Positions 8,519 to 15,110 of a stretch of 64,000 bases of DNA are shown piece after piece; within the stretch, counting starts at the first letter, position 1, and each line of letters begins with the position of its first letter. The translations under genes were made by a program, and so were the position numbers. Location of the stretch: assembly GCA_000161775.1 (NCBI GenBank), contig GG704596.1:3119829-3183828 (forward strand), read 5' to 3'. This DNA is from Ruegeria lacuscaerulensis ITI-1157 (GTDB taxonomy: Bacteria; Pseudomonadota; Alphaproteobacteria; Rhodobacterales; Rhodobacteraceae). The notes below the pieces were generated by a model. It ran no database searches, had not been told where the DNA came from, and worked only from the letters and a program-made list of their open reading frames with translations.

Positions 8519-9247
8519 ATGCCCAACGCCGTAATTGTCGCCCATGGTCAACCATCGGATCCAATCCCGGCCGAGGAAGCGTTGAAACGTCTGGCTGCCG
8601 AGATCGACCGCATCACGGCTCGGGTCTCGGTCACGTCGGCGACCTTGGCCGCCCCCGGCGCATTGGAAACCATGCTGGACGGGTTGAGCGGTGAGACAGT
8701 TGTCTATCCGCTTTTCATGGCCAAAGGGTGGTTTGTTACCAGCGCCCTTCCAAAGCGGATTGGCGGCCGCTCGGTCAGGGTGCTCGACCCGTTGGGGGTG
8801 GATCCCGATCTACCTCGGTTGGTGGCCAATGCCATAGAAGCGCAATTGGAGCAGCTGGGCTGGAGCTCCACGGAGACCGATTTGGTCATTGCTGCGCATG
8901 GATCGGGGCGCAGCCGCAATCCGTCGACAGTGGCAATGTCGTTTGCCGGAAATCTTGGCAGGCGCGTGTCGATGAAATCCATCCGGGTTGGATTTGTCGA
9001 AGAACCCCCATCCATCCGCGACGCCGCGATCGGAACCGTCGATACTGCGCTTTGCCTTCCCTTTTTCGCTTGTACCGGCGGCCATGTTCTGGACGATGTT
9101 CCGACCGAATTGCAGCGTGCCGCATTCAGGGGTCACGTCATGCCTGTTGTCGGAGAATTGGAGACGATCAAGCACCACATCGCCCGCTTGCTTGACGCAG
9201 AATTTGCAGCGCCAGATCAGCCGCGCATGGGCACAACACGAGCCTAG
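8519..9247 (+). CDS. CbiX/SirB-like protein (sirohydrochlorin chelatase fold)
   Basis: The 242-residue product starts MPNAVIVAHGQ after AGGAG at a good distance. It has two CbiX-like halves: the first with H9 in VIVAHG, the second with AAHGSGRSRNP near residue 125. These histidines are the usual metal-binding residues of class II chelatases that insert cobalt, nickel or iron into sirohydrochlorin. No cobalamin or siroheme genes lie nearby, so the substrate is uncertain. Its end overlaps the convergent cyclase gene by four bases. Confidence 0.8.
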   Translation: MPNAVIVAHGQPSDPIPAEEALKRLAAEIDRITARVSVTSATLAAPGALETMLDGLSGETVVYPLFMAKGWFVTSALPKRIGGRSVRVLDPLGVDPDLPRLVANAIEAQLEQLGWSSTETDLVIAAHGSGRSRNPSTVAMSFAGNLGRRVSMKSIRVGFVEEPPSIRDAAIGTVDTALCLPFFACTGGHVLDDVPTELQRAAFRGHVMPVVGELETIKHHIARLLDAEFAAPDQPRMGTTRA

Positions 9248-10233
9248 GATCCTGCCTGCGCCTGTTCGCAATAGAACCGGTGGAGCGATCGACCGCTTCG
9301 CTTGGCTGCGTACAACGCCAAATCCGCCGCGTGGAGAATATCGGTTGGGGTCGGAGCGGAAAACTGCGAGCTCAGGGCCGTACCGGCGCTGGCCGAGATC
9401 ACGCAGGGCTGACCTTCGAACTCCATTGGCTGCTTGAGCCGCGAAATCAACCGATCCGCGATCTTGGCCAAGATGGATTTATCCAAAAGGCCCTTGAAGA
9501 TAAGAACGAATTCGTCACCACCGATCCGGGCGACCGTATCATCGCTGCGGGTTTCCTCGAGCATGATGCGTGCCGCTTCGCGCAGCACATGGTCCCCGGC
9601 GGCGTGCCCCAACTTGTCATTGACGGCCTTGAAGAAATCAAGGTCCAAGTGCATCAACGCAAAAGCCGCCTTGCTGGAAACGAGATGTTCGAGGATGTGG
9701 TCCATGGCGCGCCGGTTCCTGAGCCCGGTCAGGGTATCGGTATAGGCCTGCTCTTCGGCTGCCAGCATCGCTCCCTGCAGGCGCAGGTTCAGTGACCGCG
9801 ACGCTTCCATGGCTGCCGATTTTGCCTCGACGAGGTACAGCAACTCGATGGCCAGGTCGGTGCCCGAGAAATCGGCGCTGGTCAGAGCGTAATCGGTCAC
9901 GGCCTCCAATATCGAAATTCCGAAGGACAGGTTGACCACGGCACCCTGATTGTCCGGCAAGGGGGCAATCAATCCCTTCAACGCAGTCTTGGGCTCGTCG
10001 CGGAATTTCAACGAAAGCTTTGCCCCGGCCGCCGCCATAAGTTCTGGAACGGTTGTTACGGTTTTTGGGCGCACCAATTCGAACAGGTTCAGAAAGCCCT
10101 GCCCCGCCATCGACCGGTGCGGACGCAGCTTTTGCAGGGTTGGCCCGACCCGCCGGATACATCCGTTGGCATCCAGAAGGGCGAACATTGGGCACAATGT
10201 CTCCAGCAAGTCTCCAAGTTTGTCGCCATCCAT
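9244..10233 (-). CDS. Diguanylate cyclase with N-terminal HNOBA (heme-NO-binding-associated) domain
   Basis: This 329-residue protein probably makes cyclic di-GMP in response to its H-NOX partner. Residues about 10-130 resemble the PAS-like HNOBA domain of soluble guanylate cyclase (GCIRRVGPTLQKL, FELVRPKTV, LKGLIAPLPD). A signalling helix (130-160) follows, then a GGDEF domain with the intact active motif GGDEF at 238-242. The inhibitory I-site RxxD (R229-S-D-D232) is present five residues before it. The ATG at 10233 overlaps the H-NOX stop by one base (TGATG), so the pair is coupled. Confidence 0.88.
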   Translation of the reverse strand: MDGDKLGDLLETLCPMFALLDANGCIRRVGPTLQKLRPHRSMAGQGFLNLFELVRPKTVTTVPELMAAAGAKLSLKFRDEPKTALKGLIAPLPDNQGAVVNLSFGISILEAVTDYALTSADFSGTDLAIELLYLVEAKSAAMEASRSLNLRLQGAMLAAEEQAYTDTLTGLRNRRAMDHILEHLVSSKAAFALMHLDLDFFKAVNDKLGHAAGDHVLREAARIMLEETRSDDTVARIGGDEFVLIFKGLLDKSILAKIADRLISRLKQPMEFEGQPCVISASAGTALSSQFSAPTPTDILHAADLALYAAKRSGRSLHRFYCEQAQAGS

Positions 10234-10820
10234 CAAGAGCTTCGTGCCCCCAGTTCAAATCGCCGACCTTCGGCGAAGGCGCTCTCGACAAGTGTCATCG
10301 AGATAACGTCAATGCCGTCCCGGTTTCCCAAATGGGACAGAAAGACCAAAGCGCCGTAGTCGTCTGCCATCGCGCGCAGAATTCCGACCAAAACGCTGGA
10401 GTATCCTTCCATTCCCGGAAAGCAGCGAAGTTCGAATTCGTTGGGTGAACACTCGACCAACTCCAGCGCGGGCAGCTCAAGATCGGACACCGCAAGGCGG
10501 ACGCGGTCGGACAGATCGTCCAGGGAATGCAGAAACTCCACATAGGTATCGCCACCAAACCGCAACAGGCGACGCAAACCTTCCATATTTGGATGAGAAA
10601 CCAGATAGGTGCCCAAATCCTCGAGAAATTCATCCCTCGGACGTTTCAGATCCGTGCACAGCGCATCCAGGAGCCGGTAGGACTTTTCCCGGTCATAGAC
10701 CAGCATGGCCTCGAACTCGACAAAGCCCAAGCCCGCCGCCTCGGTCGCGCGCCGCCAGCAATCCTGCCCATAGGTCGCGCAGACAAATGATTGAATAGCC
10801 CTGTTTATCAGCCCGTGCAT
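10233..10820 (-). CDS. H-NOX (heme NO/O2-binding) domain protein, proximal histidine apparently missing
   Basis: The 195-residue protein starts MHGLINRAIQSFV, the usual H-NOX opening, and keeps the Y-G near residue 18, the FLHSLDDL helix and the PALELVECSPNEFEL strand region. In ordinary H-NOX the heme ligand is the His in LDxLHxHL; here that position aligns with S104 in LDDLSDRV. The YxSxR propionate-binding motif is also not visible. H98 is nearby but sits where Gln is found in soluble guanylate cyclase. It may bind heme differently or not at all. I chose ATG 10820 over a GTG at 10853. It is coupled to the HNOBA-GGDEF gene. Confidence 0.82.
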   Translation of the reverse strand: MHGLINRAIQSFVCATYGQDCWRRATEAAGLGFVEFEAMLVYDREKSYRLLDALCTDLKRPRDEFLEDLGTYLVSHPNMEGLRRLLRFGGDTYVEFLHSLDDLSDRVRLAVSDLELPALELVECSPNEFELRCFPGMEGYSSVLVGILRAMADDYGALVFLSHLGNRDGIDVISMTLVESAFAEGRRFELGARSS

Positions 10821-10942: not shown

Positions 10943-12502
10943 TCAGAAATCCGTCGGCGCTCCTCCCTCGGCCTTGCGCCGCGCCACGAAATCGGCAAGC
11001 TCCTCGCGGATGGACGTATCGATGGGCGGAGCCTCGAAGCTGCCTATGATTTCCTTGAACATCAGATGCGCGCGCTCTGCGGTCCATATACCGCCGGCGA
11101 TTTCCCATCCCTCGTAGTTTTTCCAATCACTTAGAAAGGGTTGGTAGAATGCGGTCGTATAGCGATCCTGAGTGTGTTGGATACCAAAGAAATGGCCCTC
11201 GTTTCCCACGGACCGGATCGCATCAAGTGCAATTTCGTCCGGTCCCGTCGCACAAAGCTCTGGCTGCATGTAACGCTGGATCTGTTGCAGGATCTCGCAA
11301 TCCATGATGAATTTTTCGGGGCTGGCGATCAGTCCGCCCTCGAGCCAGCCAGCGGCGTGATAGACCATGTTAGTGCCTGACTGAACCGCCGCCCACAGAG
11401 AATTCGAAGTCTCCCAGATCGCCTGCCCGTCCGGGACATTGGCGGCACACACCCCCGAGGACCGCAGGGGCAGCCCATAAAACCGCGCCATCTGGCCGGT
11501 CATCTGGGTCGCGCGCATATATTCCGGTGTGCCAAAGGCCGGCGCGCCCGATTTCATGTCGACATTCGATGTAAAGGTGCCGATCACACAGGGAATGCCG
11601 GGGCGGACATATTGGAACAGGGCGATCGCACATAGCGCCTCGGCCAACGACTGCGCCACCGCGCCTGCCAGAGTAACTGGCGCCATCGCTCCGGCCAGGG
11701 TGAACGGCGTGACCACGATCGCCTGCCCCCGGCGGGCCAGCCGCAGACATCCGTCTATCATCGGATGGTCGTGCTTGAGCGGCGACGTCGAGTTTATGTT
11801 GGTGTACATCCGGGGCGTAGACTCGAATTCCTCGTGGCTCAGACCTCCGGCGATGCGAACCATCTCCATCACATCTTCGACCCGCTCCTTGCCCAGCGAA
11901 TAGGCGTGCATCGCCTTGTCGGTCAGGGTCAGCTTGTCGTACAGAACGTCCAGGTGCCGCACACTGGCGTGAATATCCACGGGTTCGACCGGATAGCCTC
12001 CGGCAAAATGGATGCAGTTGAAATATTGCGTCAGTTTCAGCAGGTTCTGGCACATCTCCCGGTTGCCGGGCACCTTTGTTCCAATCTCCATGTCCCAATA
12101 ATTGGGCGGCGAGGACACATTCCCGAACAACAGCTTTCTTCCGCCGATCTCGATCGTGCGTTCAGGGTTTCGCGGGGTGATGGTGAAAGTCGAGGGCGCT
12201 TTGCCCACCATCTCCATAACGAAGTCTCGCCCCATTCGCACGATATCACCGTCGACCGTACACCCGGCCTCGCGGAATATCCCGATCGCCTCTTCATTCA
12301 GAAACTGAATCCCGATCTCCTCGAGAATTCGCATCGCGCCATCATGGATGGCCTCAATCCCTTCTGAGGTCAGCGGCTCGGTGGGATGGTCGATGTTGAT
12401 CGGCGGGTTCCACGGCATTTGATCAATGACGGCCGCGCCCCTGCGCAGGGCAGCGCCGGCCCGTCCACCGCTTCGGCGCTTGCGTGTCTTTGTGTCGGCC
12501 AT
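10943..12502 (-). CDS. MttB-superfamily methyltransferase (trimethylamine/betaine:corrinoid type)
   Basis: The 519-residue protein matches the MttB family, whose members move a methyl group from quaternary or tertiary amines to a corrinoid protein. Segments such as MPWNPPINIDHPTEPLTSEG, IHFAGGYPVEPVD and EGHFFGIQHTQDRY are typical of alphaproteobacterial members. No in-frame TAG is present, so it is the non-pyrrolysine type, like glycine betaine methyltransferase MtgB. I chose the ATG at 12502 because GGAGG lies five bases upstream. No corrinoid protein or reductive activase is beside it, so the acceptor must be encoded elsewhere or the reaction differs. Confidence 0.82.
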   Translation of the reverse strand: MADTKTRKRRSGGRAGAALRRGAAVIDQMPWNPPINIDHPTEPLTSEGIEAIHDGAMRILEEIGIQFLNEEAIGIFREAGCTVDGDIVRMGRDFVMEMVGKAPSTFTITPRNPERTIEIGGRKLLFGNVSSPPNYWDMEIGTKVPGNREMCQNLLKLTQYFNCIHFAGGYPVEPVDIHASVRHLDVLYDKLTLTDKAMHAYSLGKERVEDVMEMVRIAGGLSHEEFESTPRMYTNINSTSPLKHDHPMIDGCLRLARRGQAIVVTPFTLAGAMAPVTLAGAVAQSLAEALCAIALFQYVRPGIPCVIGTFTSNVDMKSGAPAFGTPEYMRATQMTGQMARFYGLPLRSSGVCAANVPDGQAIWETSNSLWAAVQSGTNMVYHAAGWLEGGLIASPEKFIMDCEILQQIQRYMQPELCATGPDEIALDAIRSVGNEGHFFGIQHTQDRYTTAFYQPFLSDWKNYEGWEIAGGIWTAERAHLMFKEIIGSFEAPPIDTSIREELADFVARRKAEGGAPTDF

Positions 12503-12627
12503 GCGGTCCTCCGGCATTTGCATACCGTTTCAGCCAAACCCAAGAGACGATGCGATGGCCGCTCCATCTGCGACACGGCGGGTCGGTTTCCAACCATGAA
12601 CTGCCGAAATCTGAATGACTGGCTGGA

Positions 12628-13628: not shown

Positions 13629-13715
13629 AAGAGTCTCGCATGGCGGCATTTGGAAAGGGTTTGTTAACCAGACTCATAAACACTTTCCGGGCACTTGCAA
13701 TCAACGGTGAAGATC

Positions 13716-15110
13716 ATGTCCGCGCAGGGAACCATCCTTGTCCTCGATGGAGTATCGACCAATCGCATCATGCTGAAAGTTCAGCTGACGGCAGCTTGGT
13801 ACCATGTGGCCCAGGGCGAAAAGCTGTCGGGCCTGAGGACGCAATTGCGCCGGGTGCAGCCCGACCTGGTACTGACAGCCCTGACACTGCCCGACGGTAC
13901 CGCGGCTGACGTCAAGAAGTTGATGCAGAGCGACCCGGCGTTCAGAGATGTCCCTGTCGTGGCAATCGCTGCGCATAACGACAAGGCCGCACGGCTGCGC
14001 GCATTGTCCGAGGGGCTGGACGACGTGCTCGGTTTTCCGGTCAGTGACACTTTTCTGTTGGCGCGGGTCCGCAGCCTGCTGCGTGCACGGTCGGAGGCGC
14101 AGGACCTGCAAGGAAAGAAAGGCATCCAACCCTTCGGGTTCGCCGAGGCGTCCGCCCCCGTGCTGGCTCCAGCCCGCATGGGCAGGATCGCGGTTCTGGC
14201 ACAATCGGCACGTCAGGGCACCGTGTGGCGCAAGGCGCTGGCCGAGCGCACAGGAAGAACTGTTGAATCACATACGCTTCCCAACCCGAGCGGAGTTCTG
14301 TCCGGATCTGCCCCCGACGCAATAGTCGTCGAATTGAGCCCCGATCCACAGGGGCTGAACATGCTGGCGGACCTCAAGTCACGTATCGGGGCTCGGCGCA
14401 CTGCCGTCATCGGCATAATTCCCGACGAAAACACCACCTTGGCAGCCGACGCACTGGACCGCGGCGCCGATGCCGTGTGCCTTGGCGGTTTCTGCGCGAC
14501 AGAACTGGCACTGCGGATCGATGCGCTCATGGCGCGCAGGGCGCATGAAGATCATATGCGAGCCGCCCTTTGGCGCGGACTGGAGGAATCCCTCATAGAT
14601 CCGCTGACTGGCCTCAACAACCGCCGCTATGCACTGTCGGCATTGGACCGGATGATGACGCGTGCAACACGGAAAGGCCAAAGCTTTGCAATCATGCTGG
14701 CCGATCTGGATCACTTCAAATCGATCAATGACAGGTATGGGCACTCTGTCGGCGACCAGGTTTTGGTCGAGGCAGCCAAGCGCATGAGGCGCGCCTTTGG
14801 AAACGAAGGGTTCCTCGCTCGGATAGGAGGCGAGGAGTTTCTTTTCGCGTTGCCCGATGCCGACCACCGCACTGCCAGGGCCAAAGCCGAACGTATCTGC
14901 CAACTTATGGCGGCCTCACCTTTCGTCATGCCCACCATACCAACACGTCTGACGGTCACCGTCAGCGTCGGCCTCAAATTGTGCGAACCACCCTTCCAGT
15001 GTCTGGGTGAGGATGGATGCACGGCGCCGGAGCTGGTGAATTGCGCTGACCGGGCTCTTTACGCGGCCAAGAAGGCAGGTCGGAATCAGTTCCGGTTGAG
15101 TGCCGCCTGA
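13716..15110 (+). CDS. pleD: PleD-like two-receiver diguanylate cyclase with degenerate receiver domains
   Basis: The 464-residue protein has the REC-REC-GGDEF order of PleD, a cyclic di-GMP synthase. The first receiver (about 5-125) reads PDLVLTALTLPDG where a phosphoacceptor Asp is expected, leaving A55, and its acidic pocket is reduced to LDG. The second receiver (about 155-275) has Glu at the equivalent place (AIVVELSPDP). The GGDEF domain keeps GGEEF in ARIGGEEFLFALPD, but no RxxD I-site is seen before it. I chose ATG 13716, preceded by GGTGAAG. Phosphorylation control as in PleD seems unlikely; another input is inferred. Confidence 0.85.
   Translation: MSAQGTILVLDGVSTNRIMLKVQLTAAWYHVAQGEKLSGLRTQLRRVQPDLVLTALTLPDGTAADVKKLMQSDPAFRDVPVVAIAAHNDKAARLRALSEGLDDVLGFPVSDTFLLARVRSLLRARSEAQDLQGKKGIQPFGFAEASAPVLAPARMGRIAVLAQSARQGTVWRKALAERTGRTVESHTLPNPSGVLSGSAPDAIVVELSPDPQGLNMLADLKSRIGARRTAVIGIIPDENTTLAADALDRGADAVCLGGFCATELALRIDALMARRAHEDHMRAALWRGLEESLIDPLTGLNNRRYALSALDRMMTRATRKGQSFAIMLADLDHFKSINDRYGHSVGDQVLVEAAKRMRRAFGNEGFLARIGGEEFLFALPDADHRTARAKAERICQLMAASPFVMPTIPTRLTVTVSVGLKLCEPPFQCLGEDGCTAPELVNCADRALYAAKKAGRNQFRLSAA

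Follow-up and report, generated by a model that had tools for sequence, protein, structure and literature searches.

H-NOX genes are commonly read as nitric oxide (NO) sensors. The stretch of 64,000 nucleotides of the Ruegeria lacuscaerulensis ITI-1157 genome analyzed here (contig GG704596.1; hereafter, the window) encodes an H-NOX protein with serine in the place of the expected proximal heme ligand, directly followed by the gene for a predicted diguanylate cyclase. A sequence-only reading had proposed a heme-free or differently liganded sensor that retains coupling to a cyclase. The gene and the positions within it that matter here are:

10233..10820, minus strand: hnox, an H-NOX (HNOB) protein without proximal His, 195 amino acids plus stop (Pfam PF07700, PDB match, model and fold search)
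10527..10529, minus strand: codon of H98, the candidate replacement ligand of the sequence-only reading (sequence)
10509..10511, minus strand: codon (TCC) of S104, the position of the proximal heme ligand, with Nostoc H105 opposite in the alignment
10470..10472, minus strand: P117, aligned to the conserved H-NOX proline and invariant in its class (178/178)
10410..10424, minus strand: degenerate YxSxR site, C133 x P135 x M137 (CxPxM; sequence alignments)

By profile, alignment and predicted fold, the 195-residue protein is an H-NOX in both descent and fold. A profile search matched residues 2-156 to Pfam HNOB (PF07700; E 5.9e-23; bit score 82, cut-off 25.5), and in a PDB comparison the top solved relatives were the entries for Nostoc Alr2278 H-NOX (E 4.4e-21). 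The AlphaFold2 model, which was built from 83 related sequences and without heme, reached a mean pLDDT of 91.0 and a pTM of 0.86, and resembles Nostoc H-NOX (Foldseek E 3.7e-14, TM 0.81 to 0.82) and human sGC beta (VIA Z up to 21.7). Beyond H-NOX itself, the folds ranked next were TRAPP Bet3 types (one palmitate-bound) and BcsD, at Z ~9, a range rated middling. A single HNOB protein was detected in the source genome; the nearest match, in R. intermedia, is 85% identical.

The proximal helix aligned without gaps to both Nostoc and D. shibae H-NOX. S104 lies opposite Nostoc H105, which we take to be the proximal heme ligand, and opposite the His of D. shibae H-NOX (LDDLSDR vs LDDLHDR). The sequence-only reading had called for this alignment and for a structure prediction, and its serine at the expected place of the proximal His is confirmed by the former, with an H-NOX fold predicted by the latter. 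Its remark that no clear YxSxR motif is present also stands, the site being CxPxM. Among the 81 closest sequences (the window protein counted, some duplicates), none has His at the proximal site (S 40, P 25, A 15, T 1), and the missing His is thus not a matter of chance. Judged from its residues, which lack both of these hallmarks of heme binding, the H-NOX of the window is likely heme-free. P117 aligns with the conserved H-NOX proline, which is named as a heme contact in a passage of PMC7108781.

The partner gene overlaps hnox in the sequence TGATG, and was resolved as follows:

9244..10233, minus strand: HNOBA-GGDEF protein (GGDEF profile, model); the ATG at 10233 is preferred to the in-frame TTG at 10236 chosen by the gene finder
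9754..10206, minus strand: HNOBA-like region (Pfam PF07701, E 0.0021)
9538..9549, minus strand: I-site RxxD (RSDD; sequence); present in 173/176 partners in the class
9508..9522, minus strand: GGDEF active-site motif (sequence); present in 176/176 partners in the class

The Pfam GGDEF profile matched the partner with E 1.8e-40. HNOBA in the partner alone scored 18.0 bits, under the cut-off of 23.4; in the aligned partner family it was matched in 59 of 61 members (window counted) at E up to 1, the best being 3.8e-8. The HNOBA-like domain, the intact GGDEF site and the intact I-site of the sequence-only reading were all recovered, the first through these relatives and the others as motifs in the sequence, and we assign the partner as an HNOBA-GGDEF protein and predicted diguanylate cyclase. 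Its model comprises a mixed alpha/beta N-terminal domain, a long helix of 37 residues (128-164) and the GGDEF domain. In sGC the domains run PAS, coiled coil, cyclase, and the three parts of the partner model follow a like order, the comparison being by order alone.

HNOB matches were found in all 54 genomes of the genus, in at least 221 of 295 genomes of the family sample and in at least 238 of 292 of the order sample, and a single-protein search of the taxonomic-class sample gave a match in 10 of 387. H-NOX sequences were obtained from 263 of 264 loci, and dropping 35 duplicates left 230 distinct rows, two reference rows included. These were split by regular expression into a canonical class and the class to which the window protein belongs (hereafter, the class); the D. 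shibae sequence (L111) was reassigned to the latter by hand, with which the tree described below agrees. In 179 distinct proteins of the class, which come mainly from the better-scoring end of the family and order matches listed, the proximal residue is Pro in 100, Ser in 31, His in 25 and Ala in 12, and more rarely Arg (3), Asn (2), Gln (2) or Thr, Glu, Lys and Tyr (1 each). The proximal His is missing from 154 of the 179 members examined, and the His-less state is the rule, not the exception, among those sampled; the His share of 25/179 is probably too high, because sampling favored high-scoring matches. Y133 and S135 of YxSxR occur together in none of the 179, and P117 and G146 are invariant (178/178 rows at that count). 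In the canonical class, proximal His is present in 50 of 51 rows and the Y and S of YxSxR in all 51. One canonical-class H-NOX (L108 / L148) has Gln at the proximal site (ELQAEVHKLYP); it belongs to genome G138, which also encodes a second H-NOX (L149), with Pro at this site.

A GGDEF gene lies directly downstream of hnox in 176 of 178 loci of the class (window excluded, D. shibae included), a count that covers His-bearing and His-less members alike; the remaining two loci end too early. The partners were matched from their N-terminal part in 173 of the 176 cases, and a GGDEF partner of this kind occurs at 8 of 50 canonical loci. The suggestion that the proximal ligand was lost and the pairing with a cyclase kept, made for this locus alone in the sequence-only reading, therefore extends to the class. 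Two loci carry possible broken copies or sequencing errors: in a congener (G032, C2:184019-184487) the hnox match is split across two frames, and in a family member (G323, C24:241161-241622) a TAA falls within it.

The sequence-only reading had further named H98 as a residue that could replace the proximal His, and the class does not bear this out. H98 is present in 119 of the 154 His-less members against 14 of the 25 that bear His, a weak trend toward the former (Fisher p 0.07 for 14/24 vs 119/154). Its absence from 35 His-less members, its presence in over half of the His-bearing ones and its predicted orientation leave it without support as the replacement ligand. On the predicted helix 93-110, H98 would lie ~240 degrees from S104, off the face formed by residues 97/100/101/104/107/108, so that helical-wheel geometry would place it away from the heme pocket. 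Other candidate ligands are also frequent in His-less members, namely H2 (147/154, and 20/25 of the His-bearing), H76 (128/154) and C133 (115/154).

We placed 130 rows of the class and 20 canonical rows on a quick tree (SH-aLRT support alone, with 88 of the 147 inner branches left open and stars less trusted by the tool), leaving off rows under 140 residues, rows of the class at least 80% identical to a kept one, and canonical rows at least 60% identical. The two classes separate (99, starred). Within the class, the tree implies about 14 changes between His and non-His, at least six of which are forced by starred branches; His-bearing rows occur near the base of the class and also singly within Pro clades. 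Most proximal residues seen can be reached from a His or Pro codon by a single base change, and the codons of the close set are all NCN. Median dN/dS is 0.084 for hnox (122 close pairs) and 0.104 for the cyclase gene (61 pairs), values taken from closer relative pairs because dS between the window and its relatives is near saturation (1.16 to 1.50, three relatives). Thus, hnox is under purifying selection.

NO physiology was considered as a reason for keeping His and dropped: NnrS (PF05940), which we take as a marker of NO metabolism, was found in 15 of 24 His and 53 of 98 non-His genomes (Fisher p 0.50), and a tree-based comparison had six pairs on starred branches, too few for a test. Trp, Phe or His at position 135 is commoner with proximal His (17/24 vs 13/106, p 2e-8, phylogeny not removed), and tree-based pairs were unable to reach significance for this co-change. 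An aromatic residue or His at the old Ser of YxSxR may hint at a reworked heme pocket in the His-bearing members.

Three further genes lie around the pair:

8519-9247, plus strand: CbiX-family gene, convergent with the cyclase gene
10943-12523, minus strand: MTTB (trimethylamine methyltransferase-family) gene, upstream of hnox
13695-15110, plus strand: receiver-GGDEF protein, ~3 kb from the hnox start

Three GGDEF proteins were found in the genome, two of which, the receiver-GGDEF protein and the H-NOX partner, are in the window. The MTTB gene accompanies the pair at 46 of the 50 close loci and at 66 of the 137 loci of the class that span at least 4.4 kb; for the CbiX-like gene the counts are 27 of 50 and 13 of 137. 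Absences among the 137 are soft, as many of these loci end within ~1 kb of the cyclase gene. With such counts, the idea that the CbiX-like neighbor points to a tetrapyrrole ligand was dropped. The full CtrA site is TTAA-N7-TTAA; no copy with up to one mismatch was found in the window, where 1.63 are expected by chance. GGDEF, MTTB and HAD family genes adjoin the hnox pair, and a figure legend in PMC8738867 lists MTTB, HAD and GGDEF among the neighbor families of five H-NOX groups taken together.

We propose, with a probability of about 0.6, that the His-less H-NOX has no canonical hold on heme iron and controls the cyclase independently of heme, most probably inhibiting it through the HNOBA domain and the coiled coil. 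In ordinary H-NOX proteins, binding of NO releases the proximal His and the subdomains rotate, as described in a passage of PMC7108781. Where the proximal bond is never made, the resting state may resemble the histidine-released, NO-bound form, and it might be tuned by some input, or by none. The model offers a hint, and only a hint, that it is closer to the activated state: its VIA Z against human sGC beta is 21.3-21.7 for NO-activated and 19.0-20.2 for inactive structures, but the NO-bound and unliganded S. oneidensis forms tie (19.4 and 19.5), unliganded K. algicida H-NOX gives 20.0, and the ligand-free compact form of Manduca (9oxn_B, 19.1) exceeds the active one (6pat_B, 17.2). We also entertain, tentatively and as a rather doubtful extension, that the Rhodobacterales class was uncoupled from heme, switching between His and other proximal residues at least six times with the pairing kept, so that in most of these bacteria the H-NOX fold would carry a heme-independent input to c-di-GMP signaling, with His-bearing members such as D. 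shibae as exceptions.

Several other explanations bear on the same evidence. It is possible, though we would not favor it, that the old heme pocket accommodates a different small ligand or responds to redox signals, making the protein a sensor of something else. The purifying selection on hnox fits such a role, as do the positions opposite Nostoc W74 and M144, presumed to line the pocket, which are kept as smaller aliphatic residues (W74 to L in 127/130, M144 to V in 109/130). Against it, we know of no ligand for the pocket of a His-less H-NOX, and the proximal site has no fixed residue, with P, S, A, R, N, Q, T, E, K and Y all seen. PMC8738867 further states that Group 5, the group of such proteins, has no conserved Cys, although C133 is present in 115 of 154 His-less members here.

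An unlikely reading is that the protein still binds heme, through H98, H2, H76, C133 or no residue at all, and senses NO. The possibility that heme is retained even when no axial His is present counts against our preferred reading, and the candidate ligands are indeed frequent in His-less members, H98 slightly more so than in His-bearing ones; for P. denitrificans, an NO-based model is also retained by the authors of PMC5588039. However, H2 is common in His-bearing members too, H98 is often missing and predicted to lie off the pocket face, and YxSxR has lost its Y and S. A former NO sensor in the course of decay would agree with the loss of His and YxSxR and with the split match of the congener, but we consider this very improbable given a match in every genome of the genus, the low dN/dS and a GGDEF motif in every readable partner. 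A misaligned but ordinary heme H-NOX, with its proximal His elsewhere, has nothing found in its favor, is already refuted by the gap-free helix and retains hardly any probability. Our preferred reading remains heme-independent control of the cyclase.

The iron ligand is missing in most members examined, and the reading as NO sensors is therefore unsafe for this class. Three genera (g210, g55 and g266) each have both His and Pro members, and with these natural pairs, which differ at the proximal residue, the contribution of the iron-histidine bond to cyclase control could be tested cleanly.

The sequence-only reading implied that such a pair was new; however, passages of PMC5588039 (2017) and PMC8738867 (2022) describe His-less H-NOX/GGDEF pairs. 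The former reports that P. denitrificans H-NOX is without the axial His, like that of Rhodobacter sphaeroides, with reference to earlier work of 2003 and 2013, and the latter, a review, defines a 'Group 5' in which fewer than 10% have His and most have Pro, and poses the question of how they could sense anything. The His-less class is thus already known; the present analysis adds a count across the class, evidence that the proximal residue switched repeatedly while the partner was retained, and, in D. shibae, a relative with His that allows direct comparison. We place the window protein in Group 5 by its relation to P. denitrificans and its missing His, not by a similarity network. In the open literature, H-NOX with Ruegeria returned the D. 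shibae work alone, and H-NOX with Rhodobacterales and proline, and H103G with H-NOX and S. oneidensis, returned nothing; likewise, no biochemistry of a His-less member was found there, and no published tree of His switches was met, though none was sought by name. The excerpted review also cites a Silicibacter H-NOX/kinase pathway.

With canonical H-NOX proteins (Nostoc Alr2278 and others) and sGC beta, the window protein shares the fold, P117 and G146, but it has neither their proximal His nor the Y/S pair of YxSxR. Heme-free action, as proposed here, is also described for V. cholerae H-NOX in excerpts of PMC7108781, but there it involves Cys oxidation at a zinc site in a protein that keeps its His and can bind heme. 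A close parallel in arrangement is Pden_3719 and DgcA (Pden_3720) of P. denitrificans, where, according to passages of PMC5588039 and PMC8738867, an H-NOX without axial His likewise overlaps a GGDEF gene. The homolog in P. denitrificans HAMBI_2443 (tblastn, 36% identity over 97%; GGDEF frame downstream) has Pro where the window protein has Ser. In the excerpted text of PMC5588039, an hnoX mutant is partly biofilm-deficient, a mutant without both cyclases overproduces biofilm, and NO has effects independent of H-NOX; inhibition of DgcA by H-NOX is what its authors propose. D. shibae H-NOX and Dgc1 belong to the same class as the window pair, with 45% identity between the H-NOX proteins and the GGDEF gene downstream; D. 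shibae H-NOX differs in keeping the proximal His and, in its NO-bound form, is reported in passages of PMC7232146 and PMC8846402 to inhibit Dgc1.
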